Assembly (NCBI RefSeq): GCF_001624695.1
Contig: NZ_JSEP01000006.1
Coordinates: forward strand, 62,001-126,000
Length of the DNA: 64,000 bases
Direction: 5' to 3'
Source of the DNA: Labrenzia sp. OB1
GTDB lineage: Bacteria; Pseudomonadota; Alphaproteobacteria; Rhizobiales; Stappiaceae
This document shows, piece by piece, positions 13,204-30,862 of this stretch (positions within the stretch are counted from its first letter, which is position 1; each line of letters starts with the position of its first letter). A program made the position numbers and the translations under genes. The notes under the pieces are model-generated. The model was not told the DNA's origin. It did not search any database and saw nothing but the letters and a program-made list of their open reading frames with translations.

Positions 13204-13392
13204 ATGATGCAGTCACCTTGTATTAAAATCTGCCAGATTGACCGGGAAAACGGCCTTTGCACCGGCTGTCATCGCACGCTCGACGAGATCGCCGGCTGGG
13301 CGGGCTTCAGCGAGAACGAACGTTTGGAAATCCTGGCGGATATCGACAGGCGCCGTGACAGCCGGGACACAGGCACGGACGCGCGCGCATGA
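13204..13392 (+). CDS. DUF1289-family small cysteine protein
   Basis: This 62-residue protein has the DUF1289 pattern [10 protein letters not shown]...[15 protein letters not shown], with four cysteines in a CxxxC/CxxC layout that could bind zinc or an Fe-S cluster. DUF1289 proteins are common in proteobacteria and are sometimes linked to Fe-S or redox genes; the function is not established. Two adjacent ATGs (13204, 13207) cannot be told apart. The stop overlaps the start of the membrane aspartyl protease gene (ATGA), so the two are translationally coupled. Confidence 0.85.
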
Positions 13393-14102
13393 GGCAGCCG
13401 AAGCAGTTTCGCGGTCTGGTGACCGCCGTTCTGGTGATCGTCATGGCCGCGGCCGCATTCTACTTCTTCTTCGGCGATCCGACAGATCCGGAAAACGTCA
13501 ACTTCGACAGCAGCGGCCCCCGGATCGTGGCCCTGTCCGCCCTCGCCTTCGTGTTCATCGCAAGTTTCCTGTTCGGACAGCCGAAAGTGCGCGAAATCAT
13601 TCATGGCACCGTGTTCTGGGGCGGCCTCGGCCTTGTGCTGGTCGTCGGCTACACATACCGCGCCGACCTGGTTCAGGTCGGCTACCGCGTGCTGGGAGCC
13701 CTCGCGCCGGGAATGGCGGTCTCGCAGCCGGACGGCTCGATCCTGATTGTCCGCGATGCGACTGGCCATTTCGTCGTCGACGGGCGCGCCAACGGCACGG
13801 GAACGCAGTTCCTGCTCGATACGGGAGCAAGCGCCGTCGTGCTGACCTTCGAGGACGCGCTCCGCGCCGGATACAGGGCCGAGGACCTGTCCTTCACCGT
13901 GCCGGTCTCCACCGCAAACGGCCGTACACTCGTTGCGCCGGTGAAGATCGACACGATCACCATCGGTGACCACACATTGCGCGATATCCGCGGCTTTGTC
14001 GCCCGTCAGGGCACTCTGGACGGAAGTCTTCTGGGCATGACCGCACTCGACCGGCTGCAAAGCTGGCGGATCGAGGGCGACAAACTGATCATCACACCCT
14101 GA
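13389..14102 (+). CDS. Membrane-anchored retropepsin-like aspartyl protease (TIGR02281 type)
   Basis: This 237-residue protein has three N-terminal hydrophobic segments (about 9-28, 46-62, 76-92) and a C-terminal retropepsin-like domain (from about 115) containing the catalytic motif [13 protein letters not shown]. Such single-domain aspartyl proteases act as homodimers, each giving one Asp. The conserved C-terminal pattern ([18 protein letters not shown]) is that of the TIGR02281 clan AA family found across alphaproteobacteria. It is coupled to the DUF1289 gene by a 4-base overlap. Its substrate is unknown. It converges with dusA across 26 bp. Confidence 0.88.
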
Positions 14103-14128
14103 CGCCGGTGTTTCGAGACAAAGCGCGG

Positions 14129-15139
14129 TTATTCCGCCGCCTCGGCCGTCACATCAGCAGGGCTGACAGCCGCAAGTGCCTTTTCGACAACTTCAAGCCC
14201 GGCACCGGGCCGGATCGCCTCGACGGTGAGGATGCGCCGCCAGGAGCGTGCTCCCGGCTGGCAGTGGAACAGCCCCAGCATATGCCGTGTCATATGGGAA
14301 AGTTTCACGCCCCGGCTCAGTTGCTCTTCCATGTAGGCCGTATACGCCCGCACAGCCTCGAAAGGCGAAACATCCGGCAGGTTGCCGTCGTAAAGCCTCC
14401 GGTCGACCTCCCCCAGGATCCGCGGTGTGTGATAGGCGGCGCGGCCGAACATGACGCCATCGACGGTCTCCAGAAACGGCTCCGCCTGATCGAGGCTCTG
14501 CAGGCCGCCGTTCAGGCCGATGAACCGATCCGGGAACCGCGCCTTCAGCCGCTGCACCCTCTCGTAGTCCAGTGGCGGAACATCGCGGTTCTGTTTCGGG
14601 CTCAGCCCCTGAAGCCAGGCCTTTCTCGCATGCACCCACAGCGCGTCGGCGCCGGCGTCAAAGACAGCATCGGCCATCCGGTCCAGCGCCTCTTCCGGGT
14701 CCTGGTCATCGACACCGATGCGGCATTTGACCGTCACCGAAATATCCACCGCCGCCTTCATCGCCGCGACACAGGCCGCCACCAGCTCCGGCTCGTGCAT
14801 GAGGCAGGCTCCGAAGCGGCCGGACTGGACCCGGTCTGACGGACAGCCGACATTGATGTTGACCTCGTCGTAGCCGAAATCCGCAACGATCCGCGCCGCC
14901 TCCGCCATCTCCGCCGGATCCGATCCGCCGAGTTGACAGGCAAGCGGGTGCTCAAGGCCTGAAAACCCGAGCAGATGCTCCCGATCGCCATGGATCACAG
15001 CCCCTGTCGTGACCATCTCCGTATACAGCAGCGCATGCCGGGTCAGATGCCTGTGAAACGCACGGCAATGCCGATCCGTCCACTCCATCATGGGCGCAAT
15101 GGAAAATCTCGCTGCCGCAGCGGCTGCGTTATCGGGCAT
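14129..15139 (-). CDS. dusA: tRNA-dihydrouridine synthase A
   Basis: I start at MPDNAAAAAARFSIAPMM (ATG at 15139); the frame is open 20 codons further, but homologues begin near this point, giving 336 residues. DusA reduces uridine 20/20a in the tRNA D-loop using FMN and NADPH. Motifs: APMMEWTDRHCR at the N-terminus, CQLGGSDPAEMAEAA, and NVGCPSDRVQSGRFGACLM with the catalytic cysteine. An RNA-binding helical domain follows. The 5' end of dusA is a known integration site for mobile elements whose integrases target it, which is relevant because the DNA beyond this end changes character. Confidence 0.93.
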   Translation of the reverse strand: MPDNAAAAAARFSIAPMMEWTDRHCRAFHRHLTRHALLYTEMVTTGAVIHGDREHLLGFSGLEHPLACQLGGSDPAEMAEAARIVADFGYDEVNINVGCPSDRVQSGRFGACLMHEPELVAACVAAMKAAVDISVTVKCRIGVDDQDPEEALDRMADAVFDAGADALWVHARKAWLQGLSPKQNRDVPPLDYERVQRLKARFPDRFIGLNGGLQSLDQAEPFLETVDGVMFGRAAYHTPRILGEVDRRLYDGNLPDVSPFEAVRAYTAYMEEQLSRGVKLSHMTRHMLGLFHCQPGARSWRRILTVEAIRPGAGLEVVEKALAAVSPADVTAEAAE

Positions 15140-15810
15140 TCCTAATTCTCCGATGGTCCGCGATCCGGTTTTTGGAACCATGTTGCACACATACTGCACA
15201 CGAATTAGGGCAGTCTAGCCCCTCGAGGGTAAAGACAGGCAAACGGCGGTGTTTGGTTGCGGCAGTGATCCAGGACCCCTGCTCTACCGCAAGGGCCACA
15301 CGGTAATGGACTTTCAAAATTCCCGGCAGAGACGCTTACTCGCCAAGGGCCGTTATGTTCACGCCAATCACCGACATTTCCATGCAACATTTCGCTTCGC
15401 CTTGCCTTTCCATCGGCCGCCCCACGTGCAACTCGAAGTCAGTGCCAAAACCGGTTCTCCATGTCCGGCGCAGCTATTGTCCGGTTTGAGCCAATTGCGT
15501 TGAAAACCCTGTGTGTTTGCCGTCCTTGAACTTGCCTGTGAGAGTGGAATGGCGGCTTGCGAACATACAAGTTTCACTGGCGGACATTCGCACTGAACTG
15601 GTTCACTTTAACTTCCCGGGCCATATCAACCAACGCAGCATCACAACGAATGGCCGCTTTGGAGGTTGGGCCGAGATCCAGCGAACGTCCGTCTTGGCCG
15701 CGCTTTCCAGACCGCGGCAGATTCCACAAATACCGGCGCAGCGGTTCCGGGCAGTGCCGTGGTCCGGAGAGCGCTCAAAGGTGTCCCGGAATTGGTCCGT
15801 TCATCGGCTG
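15140..15810. other. Gene-poor 0.67 kb stretch between dusA and the iron alcohol dehydrogenase
   Basis: I find no convincing gene here. Open frames are short, lack ribosome binding sites and do not resemble a family I know; the longest ones near 15511 run antisense into the dehydrogenase gene. The DNA reads as decayed sequence, and the part around 15640-15770 looks unlike the neighbouring coding DNA. No tRNA, transposase, terminal inverted repeat or integrase gene was recognised. It may be an integration scar beside dusA. Confidence 0.5.
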
Positions 15811-16956
15811 TCAGAAAGAGGCTTGCAGCATCCTGAGATAGTCGTCAGCGGTTGCGTCAATGTGGTTGGTCTTGTGGCTGTGGTCGGCCAATGCACCGGA
15901 AATGATGCGGTCGAAGATATTTTCCGAAACACCCAGCTCCGACAGACTGACCGGCAACCCGATGGCCGCCGTCATCTCTTTGATGGCCGCTCCGATATCC
16001 GTTCCGGCAGCCAGACCCATGGCGTCGGCCAGCCGGGCATACTTGTCTTCGCTGACGGACGCCGGAGCCGGCTTGTTGAATTCCAGAACCGCAGGCATGA
16101 ACACCGCGTTCAAGGTGCCGTGGTGCAGTTTCGGATTGAGCCCGCCGAGCGCATGACTGAGGCTGTGTACACAGCCCAGGCCCTTTTGGAAGGCCATCGC
16201 GCCCATGGTTGCGGCAATTGCCATGTTGGCGCGGGCGTCCTTGTCGTCCGGTATTTCCGTAGCCTTGCGGATATTCGCCCAGGCGCGGCGCAGTCCTTCA
16301 AGCGCGATGCCGTCTGCCGGCGGATTAAAGGACGGGGCAAGATACGTCTCGATGCAGTGCGAGATAGCGTCCATTCCGGTGGCTGCAGTCAATACGGGTG
16401 GCAGCGTCATGGTCAATTCCGGATCGACAATGGCAGCTTTCGGGATGAGGAATGGAGACAGCAATCCGACTTTCCGGCCGTCATCCAGTATAACAATCGC
16501 CCCGCGCCCAACTTCGCTACCGGTGCCTGACGTTGTCGGAATAGCGATGGTCGGCCATGTCCTGGCCGTGATTTTTTGCAGGCCGCCCTCGATGACCGCA
16601 TAGGTCTTCAGGGTCCCGCCATGTGCGGCGAGGATGACAACTGCCTTTGCAAGATCGATGGCTGATCCGCCGCCAATGGCGATAACCCCGTCGGCTTCGA
16701 CCTCTTTGAACAAATCCGCCGCGACACGGACGGCCGCCTCGTTCGGGTTGCCGGGGGTCTCGTCGTAAATGCCTGCCGGCGCCTCGCCAAGGACGGCTTC
16801 AATCTTGTCGAGAAACCCGAGATTACGGACGCCCTTGTCTGTCACTACGAGCGGGCGCGAAATTCCGGCGAGCGTCAGTTCTTCCTTCAACGTGACAAGT
16901 TCGCCAAAACCAAACTGAATTCGGGTTACGTAATTGATCAGAGGCATGTCGCTCAC
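15811..16956 (-). CDS. Iron-containing (group III) alcohol dehydrogenase
   Basis: This 381-residue protein has the family layout: a Rossmann-like N-domain with GVIAIGGGSAIDLAKA (NAD binding) and a helical C-domain with the metal ligands. The divalent metal residues are visible as GMDAISHCIE (Asp and His four apart), CVHSLSHALGG (His) and KLHHGTLNAV (His). It would oxidise a primary alcohol to an aldehyde, or the reverse. It stands next to a LysR gene, and an aldehyde dehydrogenase is the first gene on the other side of that regulator. An alcohol-to-aldehyde-to-acid sequence within the same system is therefore likely, but the substrate is unknown. A 9-bp inverted repeat lies directly upstream. 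Confidence 0.9.
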   Translation of the reverse strand: MSDMPLINYVTRIQFGFGELVTLKEELTLAGISRPLVVTDKGVRNLGFLDKIEAVLGEAPAGIYDETPGNPNEAAVRVAADLFKEVEADGVIAIGGGSAIDLAKAVVILAAHGGTLKTYAVIEGGLQKITARTWPTIAIPTTSGTGSEVGRGAIVILDDGRKVGLLSPFLIPKAAIVDPELTMTLPPVLTAATGMDAISHCIETYLAPSFNPPADGIALEGLRRAWANIRKATEIPDDKDARANMAIAATMGAMAFQKGLGCVHSLSHALGGLNPKLHHGTLNAVFMPAVLEFNKPAPASVSEDKYARLADAMGLAAGTDIGAAIKEMTAAIGLPVSLSELGVSENIFDRIISGALADHSHKTNHIDATADDYLRMLQASF

Positions 16957-17191: not shown

Positions 17192-18064
17192 TCAACTATC
17201 GCTAAGCAGCTCCCAGAATGCCTCAACAGCACTGCTTCGGTAATCGTTTTCCTGCCTTATCTTTCTGAGCTCGCGACGACTGATCGGGCGTGATGGAACA
17301 AAGAATTCGACACCGTCGGGTTGGCTTTTCACTGCTTCAAACGGCAGGATGCTGACCCCGAAACCTTGGCGGACGAAAGACAGGATGGCTGTCGTATTGC
17401 GTGCCTCCAGGGTGCTGTTCGCCATTAGTCTGTCGACCAGAGGGTCGTCGATGAGGCGGCACAGCGGGTTGACGATTAGCGGCTCTTGCGTGAGCAAGTC
17501 CCAGCCTGAAGAGCCGCCTGCAGCCAAATGCGCTCTGTGGATCGGCCCACCTTCCGCGCAAACTATACCCAGATCGTCGCACAATATCAGATCCCCCTCC
17601 GACGTTTCGTCAGGACGGGCCGACACGATCCCGATGTCCGCATCATCTCGCTGCACACGCCGGCGCACTGCGGGGGTGTCAACATCGCTGATCTCAATGC
17701 GAACATCAGGATGTGTTTTCCGAAAAATTTCAATCACATCCGGTAGCAAAGACACTGTTGCCGAAGGAACCGCGGCAATGCGCACGATACCTGCCGTCGA
17801 GATGGCATGACGCCGGATAGCCTGAGAGCTCTGGTCGAAGACATCTGTGGCCCGGCGGCTCTCCTCCAGCACCAACTGACCCAGCGGTGTAAGGCGGTTC
17901 TTGCGATCCGTCTGAAAAAGGGGCGCACCGACGTCGTCGACAAGTTGCGCAAGTGTCATGGATATCGCCGAGGGCGTTCGATTCAATTCACGTGCAGCAG
18001 CGGTCAGCGTCCCTGCCTCTGCGACCGTTCGAAAGACACGCAGCATCTCCAGTTTTATCGACAT
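17192..18064 (-). CDS. LysR-family transcriptional regulator of the betaine-like catabolic operon
   Basis: This 290-residue protein has a typical LysR N-terminal winged helix (MLRVFRTVAEAGTLTAAARELNRTPSAISM) and a periplasmic-binding-protein-like effector domain with VRIAAVPSATVSLLPDVI. It is divergent from the aldehyde dehydrogenase operon, with a 90-bp intergenic region holding a 10-bp palindrome, and lies upstream of the iron alcohol dehydrogenase in the same orientation. LysR proteins usually activate a divergent operon when they bind a pathway metabolite, so this is the likely local activator. Confidence 0.88.
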   Translation of the reverse strand: MSIKLEMLRVFRTVAEAGTLTAAARELNRTPSAISMTLAQLVDDVGAPLFQTDRKNRLTPLGQLVLEESRRATDVFDQSSQAIRRHAISTAGIVRIAAVPSATVSLLPDVIEIFRKTHPDVRIEISDVDTPAVRRRVQRDDADIGIVSARPDETSEGDLILCDDLGIVCAEGGPIHRAHLAAGGSSGWDLLTQEPLIVNPLCRLIDDPLVDRLMANSTLEARNTTAILSFVRQGFGVSILPFEAVKSQPDGVEFFVPSRPISRRELRKIRQENDYRSSAVEAFWELLSDS

Positions 18065-18154: not shown

Positions 18155-19606
18155 ATGACCGCGCGCACTCAAATTTATATCGACGGCACCTGGACGGACG
18201 GCGCGTCAATCGTCGAGAACCGCAATCCGTCAGACACGTCTGATCTGATCGGGCTTTTCGCGCAGGCGGATGAATCCCACCTGGACGCAGCCCTTGCGGC
18301 GGCGCGGCGTGCGCAACCGATCTGGTGGGCCACCGGCATTCAAAAGCGCCACGATGTTCTGATGGCCGTCGGCACAGAATTAATGGCTCGCGCTGAAGAA
18401 ATTGGCCGTCTTTTGTCACGCGAAGAAGGCAAGCCGCTTGCCGAGGGCAAGGGCGAAGTTTACCGCGCAGGCCAGTTCTTTACGTATTTCGCGGCCGAGG
18501 TCCTGCGCCAGCACGGTGATCTGGCAGAAAGCGTGCGCCCGGGCATTGAGATCGACGTGCGCCGCGAACCTGTTGGCGTCGTCGCCATCATCAGCCCGTG
18601 GAACTTTCCCGTCGCGACCCCCGCCTGGAAAATCGCGCCCGCGCTGGCCTTTGGCAACTCGGTCGTTTGGAAGCCCGCGAATGTGACACCTGCCAGCGCC
18701 GTGGCGTTGACCGAGATCATCGCCCGTCAGGACATCCCAAAAGGCCTGTTCAATCTGGTGTCCGGTCCGGGCCGAAATGTGGGGCAACGCCTTGTTGAGA
18801 GCAGTCAGGTCGATGCGATCAGTTTCACAGGGTCTGTTCCTGTCGGGCGCGGCATCGCGGCTGCCGCAATCGCGAACATGACCAAAGTTCAAATGGAAAT
18901 GGGATCAAAAAACCCGCTGATCGTGATGGACGATGCGGATCTTGAACTGGCCGTTGTTCATGCCGCCGGGTCGGCTTTTGGCGGAACGGGCCAGAAGTGC
19001 ACCGCTGCCAGCCGCCTGATCGTGCATGCCTCTGTCCATGATGCGTTTGTGGAAAAGTTGGTTGCTGCGGCAAAGGCGCTGAAAGTTGGTCACGCGCTTG
19101 AGGATGGGACCCAGATCGGTCCTGTCGTCAGCGAAAGTCAGTTGACCCAGAATCTCGCGTATGTCGGAACGGGCAAATCCGAGGGCGCAGAGCTGCTCTG
19201 CGGCGGTGAGCGATTGGAACGGGCGACCGACGGCCACTACATGGCCCCCGCCGTTTTTGCGAACACCCGCAACGACATGCAGATCAACCGCGAGGAGATG
19301 TTTGCCCCCATTACCTGTGTGCAAAAAGCAGACAGCTACGCCGAGGCGCTGGCGATTGCCAATGACACGCAATTCGGCCTGACGGCAGGCATCATGACGC
19401 GGTCCCTTTCGCGGGCCATCCACTTTCGCGCGAACATGCGTGCCGGCTGCGTCATGGTGAATCTGCCGACGGCCGGTACGGATTACCATGTGCCTTTCGG
19501 CGGCCGAGGCGCCTCCAGCTACGGTCCCCGCGAACAGGGGTCCTATGCGGCTGAATTCTACACATCCGTCAAAACCGCTTATGTGTCCGCGGGAGAGCCC
19601 GAATGA
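18155..19606 (+). CDS. NAD(P)-dependent aldehyde dehydrogenase (2-ketoglutarate-semialdehyde dehydrogenase-like)
   Basis: This 483-residue protein is a full-length aldehyde dehydrogenase: SPWNFPVATPAWK (cofactor binding), FTGSVPVGRG, the catalytic glutamate in QMEMGSKNP, and the catalytic cysteine in GGTGQKCTAASR. The pattern resembles alpha-ketoglutarate-semialdehyde dehydrogenases, but this class is broad and the true substrate may differ. It is the first gene of a six-gene operon: AGGAGA precedes its ATG and its stop overlaps the next start. It would oxidise the aldehyde released during breakdown of the compound imported by the BCCT transporter. Confidence 0.88.
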   Translation: MTARTQIYIDGTWTDGASIVENRNPSDTSDLIGLFAQADESHLDAALAAARRAQPIWWATGIQKRHDVLMAVGTELMARAEEIGRLLSREEGKPLAEGKGEVYRAGQFFTYFAAEVLRQHGDLAESVRPGIEIDVRREPVGVVAIISPWNFPVATPAWKIAPALAFGNSVVWKPANVTPASAVALTEIIARQDIPKGLFNLVSGPGRNVGQRLVESSQVDAISFTGSVPVGRGIAAAAIANMTKVQMEMGSKNPLIVMDDADLELAVVHAAGSAFGGTGQKCTAASRLIVHASVHDAFVEKLVAAAKALKVGHALEDGTQIGPVVSESQLTQNLAYVGTGKSEGAELLCGGERLERATDGHYMAPAVFANTRNDMQINREEMFAPITCVQKADSYAEALAIANDTQFGLTAGIMTRSLSRAIHFRANMRAGCVMVNLPTAGTDYHVPFGGRGASSYGPREQGSYAAEFYTSVKTAYVSAGEPE

Positions 19607-20616
19607 GCTTTCTGATTGACGGCCTGCAATATGCCAACTGGTCGGAAAAGATCTTCCGCCAAATGCGCGAGGGCGGCGTGGACGCAGTTCACGTGACGAT
19701 CACCTATCATGAGACCTTTCGCGAAACGGTTCTGATCATCGAGCAATGGAACCGCTGGTTTGAAAAGCATCCGGACCTGATCTTTCAGGGCCGCACTGCT
19801 GCTGATGTTCAACTGGCCCGCGACACCGGCCGCACGGCAATTTTCTTCGGCTCGCAAAACCCGTCATGCATCGAGGATGACATCGGCCTGGTCGAGGTCA
19901 TGCACACACTGGGTCTGCGCTTTATGCAACTGACCTACAACAACCAGTCCTTGCTCGCGTCGGGTTGTTACGAGGATGAAGACACAGGCCTGACCCGCAT
20001 GGGCCGCGCTGTGGTCTCGGAGATGAATCGCGTCGGCATGGTGGTCGACATGAGCCATTCCGGAGAACGCTCCACGCTTCAGGCCATCGAACACTCGACA
20101 CGCCCCATTGCTGTCACCCACGCCAACCCGTCCAGCTGGCACATGGCCTTGCGCAACAAATCCGACGATCTGCTGCGAGCGCTCGGGGAATGCGGCGGGT
20201 TTCTGGGGCTATCGACCTATCCACATCACCTTGACGGCGGCAGCGCCTGCACGCTGCAATCCTGGTGCGACATGGCCGCCCTCGCGGTTGATCTGGTAGG
20301 CCCGACGGGCGTCGGGATCGGTACGGACCTTTGCCAGGATCAGCCCGACAGCATTGTTGAATGGATGCGTGTCGGGCGCTGGACCAAGGCAATTGACTAC
20401 GGCGAAGGCAGCGCGGCGAACGCAGGTTTTCCGGCAATGCCCGACTGGTTTCACGACAACCGCGATCTGGCTGGGCTCCGCACGGGTTTGCGCGCCGCCG
20501 GTCTGGACGAGACCACAATAGACGGCGTGATGGGCAACAACTGGCACGCTTTTTTCGAGAGCAGCTTCGGGGCGCAAACCGCACGCCCCGTCACACTAGA
20601 CCGCGCCGCCGAGTAA
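19603..20616 (+). CDS. Membrane-dipeptidase-like (peptidase M19 fold) protein with degenerate metal site
   Basis: This 337-residue protein belongs to the renal-dipeptidase TIM-barrel family and resembles the Pseudomonas protein next to dgcAB (PA5396) in dimethylglycine catabolism, as I recall it. The N-terminal HxD zinc motif of true M19 enzymes is absent: the segment reads IDGLQYANW where the classical form is DGHND. The bridging Glu is replaced in FFGSQNPS. The later histidines are kept (VDMSHSG, AVTHANPS), as are RNKSDD and IGTDL. It is therefore probably not a dipeptidase and may act on a small amine or amide with one metal. Its start overlaps the aldehyde dehydrogenase stop (ATGA). Confidence 0.82.
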   Translation: MSFLIDGLQYANWSEKIFRQMREGGVDAVHVTITYHETFRETVLIIEQWNRWFEKHPDLIFQGRTAADVQLARDTGRTAIFFGSQNPSCIEDDIGLVEVMHTLGLRFMQLTYNNQSLLASGCYEDEDTGLTRMGRAVVSEMNRVGMVVDMSHSGERSTLQAIEHSTRPIAVTHANPSSWHMALRNKSDDLLRALGECGGFLGLSTYPHHLDGGSACTLQSWCDMAALAVDLVGPTGVGIGTDLCQDQPDSIVEWMRVGRWTKAIDYGEGSAANAGFPAMPDWFHDNRDLAGLRTGLRAAGLDETTIDGVMGNNWHAFFESSFGAQTARPVTLDRAAE

Positions 20617-20650
20617 GGCGCGGGGCACATAAGTTCAGGGAGGAACGAAA

Positions 20651-22210
20651 GTGACCACGACGACCACACAAACCAAGCCGGGATCTGGCGCGATAGACAA
20701 AGCGCTTTTTGCAGTCACCGGGGGATTTATAGCGCTCTTCTGCGCCTATGCGCTGTTCGATATTGACGGGCTGTCCGCGCTTGTCGATGCCGGTTTTGGT
20801 TTTTCTGCCCGCTATTTCGGGCTGTATTGGCAGCTTCTTCTGCTCGCAACATTCCTGATCGGTCTGCTGCTATGCGTTCTTCCCGGCAGCAGAACCGTGA
20901 TGGGCGGGCTGGATGTGCCGGAATTCAAAATGTTCAGCTGGGGTTCCATGATCATGTGCACCCTGCTTGCCGGAGGGGGCGTGTTTTGGGCAGCAGGTGA
21001 GCCTATCGCGCATTTCCTGTCCACTCCGCCGGTCTTTGGCGATCTGTCGGATGATACGGCTGCGCGCGCGAATGCGGCCCTCGCGCAGAGTTTCCTGCAC
21101 TGGGGCTTTCTGGCCTGGGCAATCCTCGGATCCCTGACAACCGTGATGCTGATGCACTACCACTATGACAAAGGTCTGCCGCTGGCACCGCGCACCTTGC
21201 TGTATCCAGTGTTCGGGGAACGTGCGCTTCATGGTCCGATTGGTCTGATTGCAGATGCGTCCTGCGTGATCGCGGTGGTAGCGGGCACCGTGGGGCCGAT
21301 CGGCTTTCTGGGACTGCAGTTGTCGTACGGGCTGAATGCACTCACAGGCATTCCAGATAACTTTGCAACTCAGGCCGTCGCCATCATGGCGCTTGTCGCG
21401 GTCTATACAATCTCGGCAATCACGGGCTTGGCCAAGGGCATTCAGCTATTGTCACGGATCAACGTGATCCTTGCCATTGCATTGCTGGTGTTCATGCTTG
21501 TCGCAGGCCCCACCACAGAGATTTTCTCGGGTTTCCTTGGTGGTATGCAGATCTATCTGACGCATTTCTTTGATATGACGCTCTACCGCGGAAATGCAGG
21601 CGTGTTCGGCGATCCCGGCTGGTTGGGCTGGTGGACGGTGTTCTTCTGGGGATGGTTCATGGGCTACGGGCCGCTGATGGCGATCTTTATCGCGCGCATC
21701 AGCCGGGGGCGCTCGATCCGTCAGATCATCATCATGTTGTCTATCGCCGCACCGGTGATCACCAACTTCTGGTTCACGATCATCGGCGGCTCCGGCATTT
21801 TCTTCGAGATTGCACAGCCCGGTATCATCTCCGGACCGTTCGAGGGGTTCAACCTGCCCGCCGGCCTGCTGGCGATCACACAGGCGATGCCCATGGGTCT
21901 GATCCTGTCGGTCCTGTTTCTGGCACTGACCATGTGTTTCGTTGCCACCACCAGCGACTCGATGAGCTATGTCATCGCTTCGACAATGTCTGAAGGCGAA
22001 CCTTCGGCAAGCCTGCGCGCCTTCTGGGGTGTTGCAATGGGTGTCATGGCGCTGATCCTGATCTCGACAGGCGCAGGGGGCATAGGCAAATTGCAGAGCT
22101 TTATCGTTGTTACAGCGGTGCCGGTCTCGCTGATCCTGCTGCCTTCGCTTTGGGATGCGCTGCGCATCACTTTGATGCTCGGACGCGAGGCAAAGACAGC
22201 AACGGCCTGA
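20651..22210 (+). CDS. BCCT-family betaine/choline/carnitine-type transporter
   Basis: This 519-residue membrane protein has about 12 hydrophobic segments and BCCT landmarks: PEFKMFSWGSMIMCTLLAGG near TM3, GAGEP-like AAGEPIAHF, and the TM8 signature WWTVFFWGWFMGYGP followed by FIARISRGRS. In BetP-type carriers this signature reads WW..W.P; the changes to F and Y suggest an altered substrate pocket. BCCT carriers import quaternary ammonium or sulphonium compounds with Na+ or H+. The start is GTG, strongly supported by GGGAGG seven bases upstream. Its presence in the operon is the main argument that the substrate is betaine-like. Confidence 0.92.
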   Translation: MTTTTTQTKPGSGAIDKALFAVTGGFIALFCAYALFDIDGLSALVDAGFGFSARYFGLYWQLLLLATFLIGLLLCVLPGSRTVMGGLDVPEFKMFSWGSMIMCTLLAGGGVFWAAGEPIAHFLSTPPVFGDLSDDTAARANAALAQSFLHWGFLAWAILGSLTTVMLMHYHYDKGLPLAPRTLLYPVFGERALHGPIGLIADASCVIAVVAGTVGPIGFLGLQLSYGLNALTGIPDNFATQAVAIMALVAVYTISAITGLAKGIQLLSRINVILAIALLVFMLVAGPTTEIFSGFLGGMQIYLTHFFDMTLYRGNAGVFGDPGWLGWWTVFFWGWFMGYGPLMAIFIARISRGRSIRQIIIMLSIAAPVITNFWFTIIGGSGIFFEIAQPGIISGPFEGFNLPAGLLAITQAMPMGLILSVLFLALTMCFVATTSDSMSYVIASTMSEGEPSASLRAFWGVAMGVMALILISTGAGGIGKLQSFIVVTAVPVSLILLPSLWDALRITLMLGREAKTATA

Positions 22211-22216
22211 CGATAC

Positions 22217-22245
22217 GGCGTGGCGGGTCATCTGTCCGCCACGCC
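22217..22245 (+). terminator. Intra-operon stem-loop after the BCCT gene
   Basis: GGCGTGGCGG (22217-22226) and CCGCCACGCC (22236-22245) are exact complements around a 9-base loop, followed by only three T residues. It lies between the transporter stop and the next start 31 bp on. It may act as a partial terminator or protect the upstream mRNA 3' end, lowering expression of the three downstream genes. Confidence 0.65.
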
Positions 22246-22276
22246 TTTGCAACTTTGACCGACCGGAGTACCGCGG

Positions 22277-23953
22277 ATGTTCCAATCTGCTCATAACGCG
22301 ACCTCACCAACAGCGCCGTTCCGCCGCCCCGCGTCCCAGGTCATGCAGCTTGAACGGATGGGATGCAGTCACCCCACCCGCCTGTCTTTCCTGCGCACAA
22401 TGTTGCGCCGGTTGCATCGTGAAAACTGGACAGTGGACCGCCCCGTTTGGGACGTCGATGATACAGGCAGCGGCCATGCCGTTTACCGCACCCGATGCGG
22501 CGGCCGCACATACAGCCTCGTGGCTTTTGCTCATGACCTGCCCGACGACATGCGTTCTGACCGGGTGATTGCCACCGCCTGGGATGCGACCTTTACCCTG
22601 TTTGACGGTGAACCGACACTTGCCGATATCGCCCGCCTGCGCGACAACGTCCCAATTCAAGAAGCTGGCCGGATCAGCACGCGTGAACTGACGCTGGCAC
22701 GCGCCAACCGGTCCGTTCGCCTGTTTCACCATGTGGTTGACGCTCTGTCCCAAGGCCGTCAGCCTGACCCAGCCGAAATCGCGGACATCGGATATCTGAT
22801 GCGCACGACCGCCGTTTACGGTTCAGGGAAATTCGGGGCTGCGGACCGCTCTGACATTGCTGACCGCCCTGAATTGGCGGCCCCTTTTCAGGTCGAAATG
22901 CTGACTGTCTGGCTGATACGTGCCTTTACCGTCGATATTGCGGAACACATGGCGATGGTCAAAGGAGGCAATCGCGCCATTAGCCTTGATCGCAACCTGC
23001 GCCGCACCCTTGGTGTCGGCAATTCGACAGGCCTGGGAATGGCACCTTTTATTGTGCGCCATCCCGTTTTGCTGAACAATTGGATGATGGCCCGTGAGGA
23101 AGCTTTGGCACGCGTGCGTGCACAGGCAGGAGCGACACAATCAACCATCGCCGGACTGCGAGTGGCCCTTGATACCACCATCCAAAACGCCGCCTGCTGG
23201 ACATCCAGACATCCCGTGCAAGTGCCAAAACTCGCAGACCTGCGCACTGATGTGCGCCTGTTGTCCGATACGGTCAAGGCTTGGGATTTCGATCAACCGC
23301 ACCCATGGGATGCGCTCTGGCGCTGGGGGCAAGATGCCTTGTCATGCGAGGGACAGGAAGCGCTTCTGTCGGTGATGCTGGAACCCCACGGCGATCTGGT
23401 GGACGACCTCGCCGACTGCATGGGTGCGGATGAGGCACCATCTTTTTGCATCAATGGCGCGATGCGCGTGAGTGAGTTGCGCGCGATCCTGGAACAACAC
23501 TACGGGTGGGCGCTTTCGATCGACTTTACGACACCCGAAAATATTGCGCGCTTCTGGTACGTATCAGAAGAAAAGCTTGAGCCGCGGCTGGGCGAAAGAG
23601 CAACCGAAGACGGGGCGACACTGGAACAGCCATTGTGCATCGCCCGCCTCGCCGCCGAGTTGGACGACACCTTGCGGGACCGTGACGGCGACGAAGCTGT
23701 CGCCGCTATCCTGCTTGCTCACCCCGAACATCGCTATGTGATAAGGCGGGTTCAAATCGCGCAGAACCATCCCTATGCGGAAGTTCAGGACAACCTGATT
23801 GCCGCAGCGATGTTGCCCATCGATCTGCTGCGCTGCAAGTTGTCATTCTTCGGTGCGACACGGTTTGATCCGAGATCAGACCGCTGGGTCCGCATCAATT
23901 TGTTCCAAGGCACACCGTTCCCTGATGAAATCGGTCTGGAAGGTATGCAATGA
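22277..23953 (+). CDS. Protein of unknown function, 558 residues
   Basis: I do not recognise the family. The product is soluble (no signal peptide or membrane segment), acidic, and rich in Arg, Asp and Trp. It begins with a variable 30 residues, then HPTRLSFLRTMLRRLHRENW. Notable segments are FGAADRSD, VKGGNRAISLDRNLRRTLGVGNSTGLGM, where the Gly/Asn-rich part looks like a ligand or nucleotide loop, and a C-terminal IRRVQIAQNHPYAEVQDN. GGAG sits eight bases before the ATG. The stop overlaps the DUF3726-type gene by four bases, so the two are translationally coupled and probably act together. It is almost certainly a real gene, given its length, coding character and coupling. Confidence 0.8.
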   Translation: MFQSAHNATSPTAPFRRPASQVMQLERMGCSHPTRLSFLRTMLRRLHRENWTVDRPVWDVDDTGSGHAVYRTRCGGRTYSLVAFAHDLPDDMRSDRVIATAWDATFTLFDGEPTLADIARLRDNVPIQEAGRISTRELTLARANRSVRLFHHVVDALSQGRQPDPAEIADIGYLMRTTAVYGSGKFGAADRSDIADRPELAAPFQVEMLTVWLIRAFTVDIAEHMAMVKGGNRAISLDRNLRRTLGVGNSTGLGMAPFIVRHPVLLNNWMMAREEALARVRAQAGATQSTIAGLRVALDTTIQNAACWTSRHPVQVPKLADLRTDVRLLSDTVKAWDFDQPHPWDALWRWGQDALSCEGQEALLSVMLEPHGDLVDDLADCMGADEAPSFCINGAMRVSELRAILEQHYGWALSIDFTTPENIARFWYVSEEKLEPRLGERATEDGATLEQPLCIARLAAELDDTLRDRDGDEAVAAILLAHPEHRYVIRRVQIAQNHPYAEVQDNLIAAAMLPIDLLRCKLSFFGATRFDPRSDRWVRINLFQGTPFPDEIGLEGMQ

Positions 23954-24669
23954 CGATCGCACCACACGATCAAACGCGCGGGGATTCCGCGCAGTTCATT
24001 GAATTCGGTCAGTCGGCGTCCCTTTCGCGCAACGAAGTCGCATCCCTTTGCATGAAGGCCGCGCGCGGCGCCGGACTGAGTTGGGGACTGGCCGAAGAGG
24101 CTGGCTTCGCTGCGGAATGGCTGGTTCACCATGGCATCGACGGGCCCAGTCATCTCTATGCCCATCTCGACCAGGCGCAGGGCCGTGCATGGTGCGATCT
24201 GTGCCCGACGGTGACACCGGGAGAGTGGCGGGCACCGGCGGGCTACGCACTTTGTCCAATCGCTCTTGGGGCGACGCTTTGCGACTACGCAGGACTGCCC
24301 GAAGGGATCAAGGTCGGATCATCGCTGAAGATCGGCACGGTGGATCACCCCGTTCTCCTGATCCCGTTTCTCGCAGGAATTGCCGTATCAAACGATATCC
24401 TGTTTGACATCGAGTGGGCAGGTGGAACGGCAAGTCTTGAAGGTGGACACGAGGCACTCATGCAAGCCGTATCCGTGCTTGGCGGACAGCGGGTGCCCAT
24501 CAAGCTGACCGCACGGTTCGGCAAACCACAGGCCGCGAAAGGCGGCAAGGCTCTCAGCATCTCGGCGGAGACCATCGCAGCGCTCAATTCTCTGGCGATG
24601 CGCACAACAGTTCCCTCATCCGAAAGCTCCCGTGCGGGAGCTGGATCAACAACAACCGACAACGATTGA
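23950..24669 (+). CDS. DUF3726-type protein of unknown function
   Basis: The protein is 239 residues. The segment SLSRNEVASLCMKAARGAGLSWGLAEEAGFAAEWL matches the pattern I associate with DUF3726, though this is from memory. No signal peptide or membrane span is seen; the C-terminal 25 residues are Ser/Thr-rich and probably disordered. Motifs otherwise unknown to me include CDLCPT and GTASLEGGHEALMQ. It is coupled to the preceding 558-residue protein by ATGA, with GGAAGG just upstream. The WGLAEEAG segment suggests a conserved helical surface. Its role must lie in the breakdown of the compound handled by this operon. Confidence 0.72.
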   Translation: MTIAPHDQTRGDSAQFIEFGQSASLSRNEVASLCMKAARGAGLSWGLAEEAGFAAEWLVHHGIDGPSHLYAHLDQAQGRAWCDLCPTVTPGEWRAPAGYALCPIALGATLCDYAGLPEGIKVGSSLKIGTVDHPVLLIPFLAGIAVSNDILFDIEWAGGTASLEGGHEALMQAVSVLGGQRVPIKLTARFGKPQAAKGGKALSISAETIAALNSLAMRTTVPSSESSRAGAGSTTTDND

Positions 24670-24683
24670 AAAAGGACGCAATG

Positions 24684-25043
24684 ATGCCCTTGAAGCGCCT
24701 GAACCCCGGCCCCCGCATGAGCCAAGCTGTTTGCATTGGTGACATCGCTTTTCTTGCAGGACAGGTCCCTGATGATCTCGGAGCTGACATTACAGAGCAA
24801 ACCGAGCAGGTTCTGACCAAAATGGACGCTGTCATCAAAGAGTTGGGTGCCGACAAGGCTGACATTGCGTCTGTTCAAGTCTGGCTTGCCGACATGGCGG
24901 ACTTCCAGGGCATGAACGACGTCTGGGACAAGTGGGTCGACCGTCATGCCCCACCCGCCCGCGCAACCGGCGGCGTCGCCTTGGCCCGGCCGGGAATGCG
25001 GGTAGAAATGATTGCGGTCGTCGCGATGCCAAAATCCGTCTGA
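24684..25043 (+). CDS. RidA-family enamine/imine deaminase
   Basis: The protein is 119 residues from the second of two adjacent ATGs (24681, 24684), chosen because AAGGAC is better spaced to it. It has the RidA fold: NPGPRMSQAVCIGDIAFLAGQVPDD, a central VQVWLADMADFQGMNDVWDKWV, and the C-terminal ATGGVALARPGMRVEMIAVVAM. The conserved arginine of canonical RidA, which sits in a short C-terminal R(S/A)xxxVxxLP-like segment, is not clearly present, so this may be one of the Rid1-7 subfamilies. RidA proteins hydrolyse reactive enamines and imines, which supports an imine-forming amine catabolic step in this operon. Confidence 0.85.
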   Translation: MPLKRLNPGPRMSQAVCIGDIAFLAGQVPDDLGADITEQTEQVLTKMDAVIKELGADKADIASVQVWLADMADFQGMNDVWDKWVDRHAPPARATGGVALARPGMRVEMIAVVAMPKSV

Positions 25044-26074: not shown

Positions 26075-26944
26075 ATGCCAATAACCGACGACATGATCAT
26101 CGAAGCTACCGGGGAACTTTATTCCCGGTCGCTCAGAAAAGTTCCCGAAGATGCGAAGGCAGCCCTGGCCGCCGCCATGGAGACGGAATCGAACGAAACC
26201 GCGCGGCAGACCCTCAAGCTTCAGCTCAAAAGCGCCGAAATGTCCGAAAACAAGGATACATTCGTGTGCTCAGACAGCGGCGTGCCGGTCTATTTCGTCA
26301 AGGTGGGCAGCAAGGCGGAGCTTGCATGCGACTTCAAGGCCTCGATCCGGAAGGGCTATGAAGTCCTCGTGGAGACCATCGAGCCGCCTCTGCTGAAACA
26401 TGTCACCAACCCGATTACCCTGGAACGCGGGTATCACGGCAAGGACATGCCGATCGTTTCCTATGATTTCGAGAGCGGCGCCGATTATGTCGAGATGGTG
26501 TGCTCACCCAAGGCGCTCGGGTCTGGCCGCTGGGCGGCATTGGAACTCTTCACCTTTCCCACTCTCGAACAGATCGAGACCTACATCCTGGATGTCGCGA
26601 TCAAGGCCGGGGCTCAGCATTGCCCGCCTGTCCTCATGGGCGTCGGCATCGGCGGAACCTTCGACCATTGCGCGGGCCTTGCCAAGAAACAGACCCTGCG
26701 GCCAATCGGCGAGAAGAACCCGGACCCGGTGCTGGCGGAGATGGAGGCCAGGCTGACGAAGGCGATCAACGGGCTTGGCTTCGGGCCGATGGGCACTGGC
26801 GGCGACACAACAGTCCTGGGCGTGCATGTGGATTTTTCGAGCGGACACGGTTTTACCCCCGTCGCCGTGTGCTTCAACTGCTGGATCAACCGCCGCGCCC
26901 GCGTGCGGATCTGGGGAGACGGACGCATGGAGTGGTCGGAATGA
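26075..26944 (+). CDS. Class I fumarase/L-tartrate-dehydratase-type hydro-lyase, alpha subunit
   Basis: This 289-residue protein is the N-terminal catalytic domain of the [4Fe-4S] fumarate hydratase class I family as a separate subunit, as in TtdA. The three cluster cysteines are visible in FVCSDSGVP, VCSPKALG and DHCAGLAKK. PMGTGGDTTVLGVHVD near the C-terminus is a conserved active-site segment. The enzyme would interconvert a 2-hydroxydicarboxylate and its unsaturated acid (malate/fumarate, tartrate, or methylated analogues such as mesaconate/citramalate). The context of CoA-transferases and TctC-type uptake favours a pathway-specific substrate over the TCA cycle. Its stop overlaps the beta-subunit start (ATGA). 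Confidence 0.88.
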   Translation: MPITDDMIIEATGELYSRSLRKVPEDAKAALAAAMETESNETARQTLKLQLKSAEMSENKDTFVCSDSGVPVYFVKVGSKAELACDFKASIRKGYEVLVETIEPPLLKHVTNPITLERGYHGKDMPIVSYDFESGADYVEMVCSPKALGSGRWAALELFTFPTLEQIETYILDVAIKAGAQHCPPVLMGVGIGGTFDHCAGLAKKQTLRPIGEKNPDPVLAEMEARLTKAINGLGFGPMGTGGDTTVLGVHVDFSSGHGFTPVAVCFNCWINRRARVRIWGDGRMEWSE

Positions 26945-27573
26945 GCGTGACGGAGCATGACCTGACCCTGCCCCTCAGCCAGGAGGCGGCGCAAAAGCTG
27001 AAGCTGGGCGACTTCGTCTATCTGACGGGGGAAATCTTCGCCACCGCGGGCCTTCCGACCCATGACCGGCTGCTGAAGTGCCTGGAGGGCGCCGAACCCT
27101 TGCCGTTCGACATGAGCGGGAGCGCGCTCTTTCATCTTGGCAGCCTGAATGAGGAAGCCGAGGACGGCACGCTCAGCATTGTCTACATGAACCCGACGAC
27201 GAGCACCCGCTTCAACGCACATATGCCCCGCCTCATCCCAGGGCTTGGCCTGCGCGCAACCGGCGGCAAGGGCGGGCTGGACGCAACATGCGCGCGCGCC
27301 ATGGCTGAGAGCGGCTGCGTCTATCTGTCATTCCTCGGCGGCGGCGCACCGATCATCACGGCGGGGATCCGCAAGGTCACCGGGATCGGCTGGCCGGAAA
27401 TGATTTCGCATTACCGGATCGCCCGGATCGAGGTCGAACGCCTCGGCCCCCTGACCGTCGGGATCGATGCACGAGGCAACAGCATTTACGACCGGACTTC
27501 AAAAGCATCGCTCGAAAAGCGGGCGGCGATACTGGAGGGGATGCGCGCCGAGCGCGACAGCTTCGAGGCCTGA
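26941..27573 (+). CDS. Class I fumarase/L-tartrate-dehydratase-type hydro-lyase, beta subunit
   Basis: The start is the ATG at 26941, which overlaps the alpha-subunit stop; the frame is open further upstream but only as a shadow of alpha. The 210-residue product is the C-terminal domain of class I fumarases, with GDFVYLTGEIFATAGLPTHDR, MNPTTSTRFN, and ATGGKGGLD, which carry substrate-carboxylate contacts. Alpha and beta together form the working enzyme. The order matches ttdA-ttdB. The substrate is undetermined. Confidence 0.88.
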   Translation: MSVTEHDLTLPLSQEAAQKLKLGDFVYLTGEIFATAGLPTHDRLLKCLEGAEPLPFDMSGSALFHLGSLNEEAEDGTLSIVYMNPTTSTRFNAHMPRLIPGLGLRATGGKGGLDATCARAMAESGCVYLSFLGGGAPIITAGIRKVTGIGWPEMISHYRIARIEVERLGPLTVGIDARGNSIYDRTSKASLEKRAAILEGMRAERDSFEA

Positions 27574-27719
27574 AGGGGCTGCCATGCAGTACCTGCCGCT
27601 GGGAAGCCCGTGCAAAACGTGACGAAAGGTGCGTTCAGTGCTCGCGCCCTGGAGATCGCCGCCGCCCCACACATGAGCTCCGGGTAAGAAAAAACTTGCG
27701 CCGCCCCTGAAAAGAGTTA

Positions 27720-27741
27720 AAAACTATATTACTAGCTTTAT
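27720..27741. promoter_or_regulatory. Island operator candidate C (upstream of the first tctC)
   Basis: AAAACTA (27720-27726), a 6-bp spacer TATTAC and TAGCTTTAT (27733-27741) form an imperfect dyad of the same layout as site A. It lies 57 bp upstream of the tctC-like start, in a 224-bp gap after the fumarase-like genes. Confidence 0.45.
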
Positions 27742-27797
27742 GAAGTCGCTCTGGAATTGAGAGGCTATTATCGGGCTTGAACTGGGAGGTTTACCAT

Positions 27798-28793
27798 ATG
27801 CCGAGATTTCACTGGAACAACATCCGCCGCTCGCTTGCCGCGAGTGTCATCGGGGGGCTTGCGGTCGTTTCCGCAGGGACCGCCATCGCCGAGGATTACC
27901 CGACCCAGCCGATCACGCTGGTTGTCGGCTTCCCACCGGGGGGATCGACCGACGTTGTCGCGCGTATCCTTGCCGGGCACATGTCCACGAGCCTGGGACA
28001 GCCTGTTCTGGTCGAAAACCGGCCGGGCGCGGGTGGAACAGTCGGCATTTCGCACGTCGCCAATTCTGATCCCGATGGCTATACGCTGGGTGTCAGCGGC
28101 GTCGGCGCATCGATCCTGATCGATGCCCTGGGCCGCGATTCTGGCTATGACATCGACAACGACCTTGACGTGATCGGCGTCATGGGGACCCTCGGCCTCG
28201 TTATCGCGGGCCGCAACGGACTTGAGGCGCAAACGCTGCCGGAACTGATGGAATTCGCCAAGGCAAATCCGGAAGACCTGACCTATGGCAGTTCCGGAGT
28301 TGGAACACCGGGTCATCTGGCGATGGAATATCTGAAGAGCCTCGCCGGCGTGGAGATGCTGCACATTCCCTACAAGGGTAACACGCCGCTGTTGAATGAC
28401 GTCGTGGGCGGCCATGTCGATATCGCCATGCTGACGACGCCAGGAGCGGCCGAGCACGTTCGCGCCGAAAACATTCAGCCCTTCGCCGTCTCCTCGCCCG
28501 AGCGGTCTTCTCTCATGCCCGATGTGCCGACGGTGATCGAAGGCGGCTTCGAAGGCTACACCGCGACGCTCTGGAACCTGCTGGTCGCGCCGAAAGGCAC
28601 ACCTGCCGATGTTCAGGCGAAACTGTCGGATGCGCTGAATGGTGCAATGAAGGATGTCCGCGTTGTCGGTGAATTCGCCACGAAAGGCCTGGCACCGACG
28701 ATCACCACCCCGGAAGAGGCAACTCAGTTCCTCGTCGATGAACGAGCGAAATGGAAAGGTGTGATCGAAACTGCGGGTGTTCCGAAAAAATAG
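27798..28793 (+). CDS. Tripartite tricarboxylate transporter substrate-binding protein (TctC/Bug type), copy 1
   Basis: The start ATG at 27798 has GGGAGGT seven bases upstream; an in-frame Met at 27777 lacks one. The 331-residue protein has a Sec signal peptide (basic PRFHWNNIRR, then a hydrophobic stretch ending TAIAEDYP). The mature part is a Bug-type periplasmic receptor: GFPPGGSTDVVARIL near the N-terminus and ENRPGAGGTVG. Bug proteins bind di/tricarboxylates or aromatic acids. It precedes tctB and tctA in the order C-B-A. A GC-rich stem-loop directly downstream probably raises receptor mRNA relative to the membrane genes. Confidence 0.92.
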   Translation: MPRFHWNNIRRSLAASVIGGLAVVSAGTAIAEDYPTQPITLVVGFPPGGSTDVVARILAGHMSTSLGQPVLVENRPGAGGTVGISHVANSDPDGYTLGVSGVGASILIDALGRDSGYDIDNDLDVIGVMGTLGLVIAGRNGLEAQTLPELMEFAKANPEDLTYGSSGVGTPGHLAMEYLKSLAGVEMLHIPYKGNTPLLNDVVGGHVDIAMLTTPGAAEHVRAENIQPFAVSSPERSSLMPDVPTVIEGGFEGYTATLWNLLVAPKGTPADVQAKLSDALNGAMKDVRVVGEFATKGLAPTITTPEEATQFLVDERAKWKGVIETAGVPKK

Positions 28794-28802
28794 GAATAAA
28801 GT

Positions 28803-28832
28803 GGAGCGCGGCGGCCTTTTCCACCGCGCTCC
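28803..28832 (+). terminator. Stem-loop between tctC and tctB (copy 1)
   Basis: GGAGCGCGG (28803-28811) and CCGCGCTCC (28824-28832) pair perfectly around a 12-base loop. No T tract follows, so it is more likely an mRNA-stabilising or attenuating element at the end of the receptor gene than a full terminator. The second tctC gene in the window also has a hairpin just downstream. Confidence 0.6.
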
Positions 28833-28856
28833 GCACACCTGAATTCAGAGATCGCC

Positions 28857-29309
28857 ATGAAAACCATTTCGCTTCGGCTCATCGTTGCCGTACTTCTGGC
28901 CGGAATCGGCCTGACTGCCCTCGTCATCGCATCGACCTATGACATCGGCTCGGCCCGCAGAATGGGTCCCGGTTACTTTCCAGTCGTTTTGTCCGCCGTC
29001 CTTGTTCTGCTTGCCGTGGCAGAAGGGGTGACCGCTTTCATGAAGCGTGCCCCCGAAAGCTCTTCTTCCAAAATCGATTGGCGGCCGTTGCTGGCCATCC
29101 TGGGTGCGGTCGCGGGATTTGCGGTCACAATCGCGCTGTTCGGCCTGATCCCGGCATTCTTCGTGGTCATCGGTCTCGCGACCCTTTCGGAGCCCCGTTA
29201 TGGCTGGAAACCGGCTGCGATCCTCGCGATCATCACCTGTATCGGGGCCTGGTTGCTGTTCTCGCAGCTTCTGGGAATGACCCTGCCGCTCTTTCGCCTG
29301 GGATTTTAG
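28857..29309 (+). CDS. TctB-family small membrane subunit, copy 1
   Basis: This 150-residue protein has four hydrophobic segments (about 7-25, 36-56, 75-95 and 113-140), the topology of TctB. A SARRMGPGYFPVVLS segment after the first helix is typical of the family. It forms the small integral-membrane part of the tripartite carrier with TctA. It sits between the receptor and tctA, with a 5-bp gap to tctA. Confidence 0.88.
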   Translation: MKTISLRLIVAVLLAGIGLTALVIASTYDIGSARRMGPGYFPVVLSAVLVLLAVAEGVTAFMKRAPESSSSKIDWRPLLAILGAVAGFAVTIALFGLIPAFFVVIGLATLSEPRYGWKPAAILAIITCIGAWLLFSQLLGMTLPLFRLGF

Positions 29310-29314
29310 CCGAT

Positions 29315-30862
29315 ATGATTGAGAACATTCTCCTGGGTTTCGCCACCGCGTTCACGCCTGAAAATCTGGCCTACTGCTTTCTCGGTGTCTTTCTCGGCAC
29401 CTTCATCGGCGTCCTGCCCGGACTGGGCTCTCTCGCCGCGATCTCGATGCTGCTGCCGTTGACGTTCTATCTGGAGCCGACAACAGCCCTGATCATGCTG
29501 GGCGGGATCTATTACGGCGGCGAGTATGGCGGCTCCATCGCCTCGATCCTCCTGAACCTGCCGGGCACCCCGTCGGCCGCGGTGACCTGTCTCGACGGCA
29601 ATCCGATGGCCAAGCAGGGCCGTGCCGGGGTCGCGCTGTTCATCACTGCGATCGCATCCTTCGTCGGCGGCTCTGTCGGCATCGTGGCGCTCATGGGATT
29701 TGGTCCGTCCATCGCCAGGCTGGGCCTTGGCTTCAGCCCAGCCGATTATTTCGCGCTCATGCTGCTGGGGCTCGTGGCCGCCGTGACAGTCGGCGGCGGT
29801 TCCGTGATCAAGGGCCTCATCATGGTTGTGCTGGGCCTGCTGCTCGGCACGGTCGGCACCGACGTTACAACCGGCGATTTCCGCTACACATTCGACTTTC
29901 TGGAGCTGCGCGACGGGGTCAGCCTGGTCGCCATGGCGATGGGTGTCTTCGGTGTCTCGGAAGTCATCAGCTCGATCACAGGCTCGAAAACCCGGAAGAT
30001 CTCGGAAAAGGTCACCGCGCGCAGCATGATGCCGACCCGCCAGGACCTCCGTAAAATCTTCGGACCGATGGCCCGCGGCAGTACCATCGGCGGGTTCCTG
30101 GGCGCGCTTCCGGGAGCGGGAACGGTAATCGCGGCATTCATGGCCTATGCGACGGAAATCCGTCTCGCAAAAGACAAGACGCGTTTCGGCAAAGGCGCCA
30201 TCGAAGGCATCGCCGCCCCTGAATCCGCCAACAACGCCGCCGCCCAGACTGCCTTCATCCCTACGCTGACAATCGGCATTCCAGGCAGCGCCACCATGTC
30301 GATCATGCTGGGTGCGCTGATGATCCACGGCATCTCGCCCGGCCCGCTGCTGATTTCCGATCATCCGACCGTGTTCTGGGGTTTGATTGCCAGTTTCTGG
30401 ATCGGCAACCTGTTTCTGCTGGTCCTCAATATTCCGCTGATCGGCCTTTGGGTACGCGTTCTGCAGTTCCCCTACAAATACATTTACCCGGTGGTTATCG
30501 CGCTGATATGCATCGGCGTCTTTTCGATGCGCACCAGCGTTTTCGATGTCAGTCTGGTGGTGATTTTCGGCGCTCTGGGCTACCTGTTTCAGAGAACGGG
30601 CTATTCTCCGGCACCGCTCATTCTCGGCTTCGTCCTTGGCCCGATGCTGGAGGAAAACCTGCGCCGTGCGATGCTCATGGCGCGAGGGGATCCGATGCGG
30701 CTGATCTCCGATCCGCTGACCGGATCTCTACTGGCCATTTCAGCACTGATGCTGGTCTGGGCCGTGTTTGGCGGGATCAGAAGTCTGATCGCGGCGCGCC
30801 GGAAGGGCCGGGTGTTCCGCCATAGGCGAGGGCTAAGGTGCTGGCCCCTTCCGCCGGGTTGA
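29315..30862 (+). CDS. TctA-family large membrane subunit, copy 1
   Basis: The real start is ATG 29315 (MIENILLGFATAF); the open frame extends upstream over tctB. The 515-residue protein has about 12 membrane segments and the TctA landmarks FIGVLPGLGSLAA, YYGGEYGGS, NLPGTPSAAVTCLDG and ALPGAGTVIAAFMAYATE. It is the solute-translocating subunit, driven by H+ or Na+. Copy 2 at 46.6 kb has the same length and aligned motifs, so the two carriers are paralogues and may serve related substrates. Confidence 0.92.
   Translation: MIENILLGFATAFTPENLAYCFLGVFLGTFIGVLPGLGSLAAISMLLPLTFYLEPTTALIMLGGIYYGGEYGGSIASILLNLPGTPSAAVTCLDGNPMAKQGRAGVALFITAIASFVGGSVGIVALMGFGPSIARLGLGFSPADYFALMLLGLVAAVTVGGGSVIKGLIMVVLGLLLGTVGTDVTTGDFRYTFDFLELRDGVSLVAMAMGVFGVSEVISSITGSKTRKISEKVTARSMMPTRQDLRKIFGPMARGSTIGGFLGALPGAGTVIAAFMAYATEIRLAKDKTRFGKGAIEGIAAPESANNAAAQTAFIPTLTIGIPGSATMSIMLGALMIHGISPGPLLISDHPTVFWGLIASFWIGNLFLLVLNIPLIGLWVRVLQFPYKYIYPVVIALICIGVFSMRTSVFDVSLVVIFGALGYLFQRTGYSPAPLILGFVLGPMLEENLRRAMLMARGDPMRLISDPLTGSLLAISALMLVWAVFGGIRSLIAARRKGRVFRHRRGLRCWPLPPG

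Follow-up and report, generated by a model that had tools for sequence, protein, structure and literature searches.

A six-gene operon of Labrenzia sp. OB1, carried on the 64,000-nucleotide stretch analysed here (contig NZ_JSEP01000006.1, positions 62,001–126,000; the window), on balance probably serves to import and degrade homarine (N-methylpicolinate) or an N-methylated 2-carboxypyridinium compound closely akin to it; we infer the substrate and every chemical step. The operon encodes an aldehyde dehydrogenase (ALDH), an M19-family protein, a BCCT carrier, a 558-residue protein, a DUF3726 protein and a RidA-family protein. The window form is most likely a RidA variant of the pathway that dispenses with both the Ldh2-family reductase and the N-methylglutamate dehydrogenase (Mgd). 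A more far-reaching version, in which the 558-aa and DUF3726 proteins constitute a new class of enzyme that opens the ring of N-methylpyridinium carboxylates, has an unseen fold and does without a standard redox cofactor, while the window form represents an Mgd-independent branch of homarine catabolism whose RidA step frees methylamine into the environment, is advanced tentatively, as possible rather than probable.

Genes were called in 123 loci, of which 104 had enough flanking sequence to be kept for the locus counts given throughout. Near the 558-aa gene, DUF3726 is present in 100 loci, M19 in 99, ALDH in 67 and a LysR-type regulator in 58, and in five loci (L035, L090, L095, L103 and L139) the 558-aa and DUF3726 genes are fused. 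The operon is genuine and not a chance grouping, since the same gene order recurs in dozens of genera, and its enzymatic core is M19, the 558-aa protein and DUF3726, usually with ALDH. The transporter slot is interchangeable, with a BCCT carrier in 34 loci, a ProXV-like ATP-binding cassette (ABC) importer in 13, a Pot-type ABC importer in eight, a Liv-type importer in one and none seen in 48; the importers seen belong to classes that include betaine carriers. The first-pass annotation, made from the sequence of the window alone, had proposed a betaine-type catabolic system built around the BCCT carrier and two uncharacterised proteins. The two proteins are indeed central, both lying in the conserved core, but the system is not anchored by the BCCT carrier, for which ProXV-like or other ABC importers can stand in. 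A check of co-occurrence across genomes found the two genes separable from BCCT while M19, 558-aa and DUF3726 stay together, a separability that shows only that the transporter can be exchanged. The catabolic proposal itself stands as a reading, and homarine was on its list of substrates to try. In those loci lacking a nearby ALDH that were opened, only M19, 558-aa, DUF3726, Ldh2 and transporters recur, and no shared alternative oxygenase was seen by eye.

In the proposed pathway, homarine imported by the BCCT carrier would be dearomatised and opened between C5 and C6 by the 558-aa and DUF3726 proteins, formally at the expense of NAD(P)H and O2, to give 2-(N-methylformamido)-5-oxopent-2-enoate. 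The C5 aldehyde would then be oxidised by ALDH to N-formyl-N-methyl-2,3-dehydroglutamate, and the formamide hydrolysed by the M19 protein to formate and 2-(methylimino)glutarate. In the window form this imine would be hydrolysed by the RidA-family protein to 2-oxoglutarate and methylamine, whereas most relatives whose exit gene can be recognised would use a DpkA-like Ldh2 to reduce it to N-methylglutamate, which Mgd would convert to glutamate. By arithmetic, homarine (C7H7NO2) plus 2H and O2 gives C7H9NO4, ALDH adds O, loss of formate leaves C6H9NO4, and the formulas balance for either exit. A balance free of O2 can also be written (homarine + 4 H2O gives N-methylglutamate + formate + 2H), so oxygen may or may not take part in the ring-opening step. 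The first-pass annotation had suggested that the two uncharacterised proteins might supply the C–N cleaving enzyme; the final cleavage is better given to RidA and the amide step to M19, with the pair more likely to act in ring opening.

The two exit genes exclude each other among the loci, with RidA in 24, Ldh2 in 42, both in none and neither in 38 (Fisher p = 5e-7). A single mapped locus, L088, which has shorter flanks and lay outside the 104 or had its genes beyond the distance rule, shows both RidA and Ldh2 after DUF3726 (7203–9255). On the 558-aa tree the RidA/Ldh2 label switches at least seven times, or five times without three long or isolated rows, and sister operons differ, with a RidA-form operon (L052) beside two Ldh2-form operons (L036 and L038). 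Mutual exclusion and repeated switching are as expected if RidA and Ldh2 draw on a common imine, in which case they would offer two alternative fates for one intermediate. The Ldh2 exit protein of the relatives is a full Ldh2 whose closest solved relative is DpkA (PDB 1wtj), an NADPH-dependent imine reductase that is active on cyclic imines and can also combine methylamine with keto acids into N-methyl amino acids (PMC6110843); the window operon, in contrast, has no full Ldh2, and its shortened DUF3726 protein belongs to a family in which the catalytic histidine is not conserved. Among solved structures, the window RidA comes nearest to the Rid2 proteins PSPTO_0102 and PA5083, which are imine deaminases acting on 2-imino acids, and imine deaminase activity in Rid proteins requires an arginine equivalent to Arg-105 of RidA (PMC5619798). 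The window protein keeps this arginine (PPARAT motif), and PxR motifs are found in nearly all relatives. It is proposed to be an imine deaminase releasing methylamine and 2-oxoglutarate, although neither of the two solved proteins is known to use imines carrying an N-methyl group.

The nearest NCBIfam models of the ALDH are alpha-ketoglutaric semialdehyde dehydrogenase and 2,5-dioxovalerate dehydrogenase, both below cut-off, and its proposed substrate is a C5 aldehyde acid. These models, the DpkA likeness of Ldh2 and the Rid2 likeness of RidA are all consistent with a C5 dicarboxylate that bears an N-methyl imine. A complete M19 binuclear site consists of HxD, E, H and H; in the M19 protein, whose closest solved chain is 2i5g, the Glu ligand is replaced by Gln and the N-terminal HxD by LQY, while the two His are kept, a pattern conserved across 114 homologues. 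The metal site is non-canonical, and the protein is proposed to be an amide (formamide) hydrolase. The M19 prototype, renal dipeptidase, cleaves dehydropeptides, an activity that would suit an N-acyl dehydroamino acid.

The Ldh2 exit is linked to Mgd by gene neighbourhood, with soxBDAG-like genes lying near Ldh2-form operons. In a tree of 37 SoxA-like proteins, with MgdC references (L207 and L208) taken by gene context from gmaS-mgsABC-mgdABCD clusters, all seven full-length SoxA-like genes within 10 kb of the operons, and one slightly further away, group with MgdC in a clade supported at 100/100. A report cited in PMC13390433 has Mgd acting in homarine catabolism. Of the 47 genomes covered, 25 of the 26 with the Ldh2 form and 10 of the 21 with the RidA form carry a protein of the Mgd clade, counted from 51% identity upwards (p = 2e-4). 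The window genome has one soxBDAG set, which lies outside the Mgd clade (44% identity to MgdC), and searches of that genome found no separate MgsB-like protein and no strong match to GmaS (best, 39% over part of the protein), so this way of using N-methylglutamate is closed to the strain. A search for MADH gave no match, but neither did its control, and the negative carries no weight.

The 558-aa protein has no match among Pfam, NCBIfam or PDB sequences. Its AlphaFold2 model (predicted local distance difference test, pLDDT, 90; predicted template modelling score, pTM, 0.91), compared at full length with the PDB using Foldseek and VIA-align, gives nothing above Z 5.0, a score that comes from a commonplace alignment of helices across 88 residues; the modelled fold thus appears to lack a convincing PDB counterpart, which is not proof of a new fold. 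For DUF3726, a profile search of PDB sequences gave no match, a comparison with the Ldh2 profile aligned only 52 N-terminal residues and a literature search for the family returned nothing. The DUF3726 model (pLDDT 91) scores Z 10.0–12.9 to 15 Ldh2-family entries, which fill all the top rows (next row, Z 5.6), with the best match to 3uoe (Z 12.9, rmsd 3.5, 191 residues aligned), and by this model the protein is a shortened Ldh2-superfamily fold. The catalytic His of the SHG motif is not conserved in DUF3726, where Ala, Leu and Val are commonest in the nearest column (His68 in the window), and the protein is probably a non-catalytic partner subunit. Its conserved C-terminal tail (residues 219–239; P222, S227, R228, G230, A231, G232 and D239), modelled with low confidence, is likely a docking tail, and we infer a complex of the two proteins, a candidate ring-opening enzyme.

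Several observations weigh against homarine catabolism as drawn here. The conserved set contains no flavin, haem or iron protein, which leaves the ring-opening step without known precedent, and 38 of the 104 loci have neither exit gene nearby. Ten of the 21 RidA-form genomes still have Mgd. Once corrected for relatedness, the link between Mgd and exit type points the same way as before, with an average of 2.3 pairs in favour and 0 opposed, too few for adequate power. No known methylamine pathway was seen in the window genome. Finally, Phaeobacter inhibens DSM 17395 carries on pPGA1_262 (L037) both a RidA-form operon and a second 558-aa copy at 154728–156356, and the two copies may differ in substrate.

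These last two observations also favour a reading to which we give a smaller but real chance, that the RidA form uses the same core on a different N-heterocyclic or quaternary compound, such as another pyridinium betaine, with the imine freeing ammonia or another amine. The pairing of RidA with BCCT in 22 of 24 loci, set against the several importers of Ldh2-form loci, points the same way. Against a separate substrate, the two forms interleave on the 558-aa tree, with sister operons differing in exit, and 18 of 20 RidA-form genomes have a single 558-aa copy, so that the RidA form stands alone there.

Trigonelline (N-methylnicotinate) is a quite improbable substrate. Its breakdown proceeds by ring opening, aldehyde oxidation and then release of formate and methylamine. 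The operon would suit such a substrate in its BCCT importer and in N-methylpyridinium chemistry, and the known bacterial pathway, TgnABCDE (Perchat et al. 2018, cited in PMC8269262), likewise starts from a pyridinium betaine and with ring opening. However, the known route opens the ring with TgnA/TgnB and has been argued to be unlikely to act on homarine (PMC8269262), whereas no TgnA/TgnB-type oxygenase or flavin protein is among the conserved operon members, and the C3 carboxyl would give no glutarate skeleton or N-methylglutamate, which would leave the Mgd linkage unexplained. Less probable again is a non-catabolic operon for the import of compatible solutes with detoxifying enzymes as part of an osmotic response: BCCT carriers are often osmoprotective, but BCCT is missing from most loci whereas the enzymes persist, and the Mgd linkage is recurrent. 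A demethylation route, or one of dipeptide breakdown, headed by the M19 'dipeptidase' is hardly credible, since family membership (PF01244) is offset by the loss of the Glu ligand and N-terminal HxD throughout the family and by the absence of a demethylase from the operon.

Homarine catabolism stays the preferred reading, and a known system can be set beside it, the homarine pathway of Ferrer-Gonzalez et al. (2026, Nat Microbiol 11:1531; cited in PMC13390433). Mgd is reported to act in that pathway, and Mgd genes flank the Ldh2-form relatives. Its operon, reportedly named homABCDER and yielding N-methylglutamate, would comprise five enzymes and a regulator, the count of ALDH, M19, 558-aa, DUF3726 and Ldh2 plus LysR, and may be the counterpart of the present one, as a lead only. 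The window form differs in having RidA and no Ldh2, in a genome without Mgd. The other homarine papers searched name no catabolic genes.

The 558-aa family was found by search in 40 of 289 genomes of the class, some of them only 1.2–1.6 Mb, in 29 of 398 genomes drawn evenly across the phylum, and was confirmed in at least 590 stretches of a one-genome-per-species collection; a search of phages found no homologues. Horizontal acquisition of the operon is suggested because the closest relatives of the window protein among the matches listed (73–88% identical) are mostly Rhodobacterales (Jannaschia, Palleronia, Neptunicoccus), the family is missing from most genomes listed of the window's own order in the phylum draw, and third-codon-position GC content is 0.61–0.64 for the LysR, 558-aa and DUF3726 genes against mostly 0.70–0.82 in surrounding genes. 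A distant rhizobial branch (L039 and L042; ~30% identity), with M19 and polyamine-type ABC transporters and no recognised DUF3726 domain, probably acts on a different substrate. Alphaproteobacterial-looking copies in metagenome-assembled genomes labelled Deltaproteobacteria or Acidimicrobiales (L102, L097, L144 and L152) reflect either transfer or mis-binning. Among the neighbourhoods, the RidA-form operon of P. inhibens adjoins a dimethylsulfoniopropionate demethylation cluster (dmdA, dmdD), and a Sulfitobacter RidA-form operon (L034) lies beside genes at 12964–16084 for a tripartite ATP-independent periplasmic transporter, two flavin adenine dinucleotide oxidoreductases, a further RidA and a 2Fe-2S protein, a set that recalls amino-acid dehydrogenase clusters of three parts.

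Gene calls and family models agree with the plus-strand six-gene operon at 18155–25043 first described, including its divergent LysR gene and its three 4-base overlaps, which lie at the ALDH/M19, 558/DUF3726 and DUF3726/RidA junctions; gaps of 34 and 66 bases precede the BCCT and 558-aa genes, respectively. A scan of promoters and terminators found no promoter-like site and no excess of terminator-like sites. The adjoining alcohol dehydrogenase noted in the first-pass annotation is present but probably lies outside the system, because it scores as a 4-hydroxybutyrate dehydrogenase and does not recur beside related operons. Downstream (26075–30862), genes that by eye resemble a two-part class I fumarase/tartrate dehydratase and then a tripartite tricarboxylate (TctCBA-type) transporter apparently form a separate hydroxyacid-use cluster.

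Table 1. Genes of the operon and its upstream neighbours, in window positions.
Feature	Positions	Strand	Family evidence
ALDH (aldehyde dehydrogenase)	18155-19606	+	PF00171, 529 bits
M19 protein	19603-20616	+	PF01244, 7e-68
BCCT carrier	20651-22210	+	PF02028, 482.9 bits, cut-off 27
558-aa protein	22277-23953	+	no Pfam or NCBIfam match
DUF3726 protein	23950-24669	+	PF12525, 81 bits
RidA-family (Rid2-like) protein	24666-25043	+	PF01042
LysR-type regulator	17192-18064	-	PF03466 + PF00126; divergent from operon
Iron alcohol dehydrogenase	15811-16956	-	NF058672 (4-hydroxybutyrate dehydrogenase), 598 bits, cut-off 500

In surface seawater, homarine has been reported to account for as much as 3% of the particulate carbon (PMC8269262), although a 2023 correction states that the homarine concentrations were too high (PMC10134881), and with such abundance its fate bears on the carbon and nitrogen of the sea. 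With its many members and neither an assigned function nor a PDB match, the 558-aa family stands out as the leading candidate for a ring-opening step that has no precedent. If the proposed pathway is true, there would be two kinds of homarine degrader distinguishable by sequence, one ending in N-methylglutamate and glutamate and the other in 2-oxoglutarate and methylamine, and some bacteria would be a source of methylamine.

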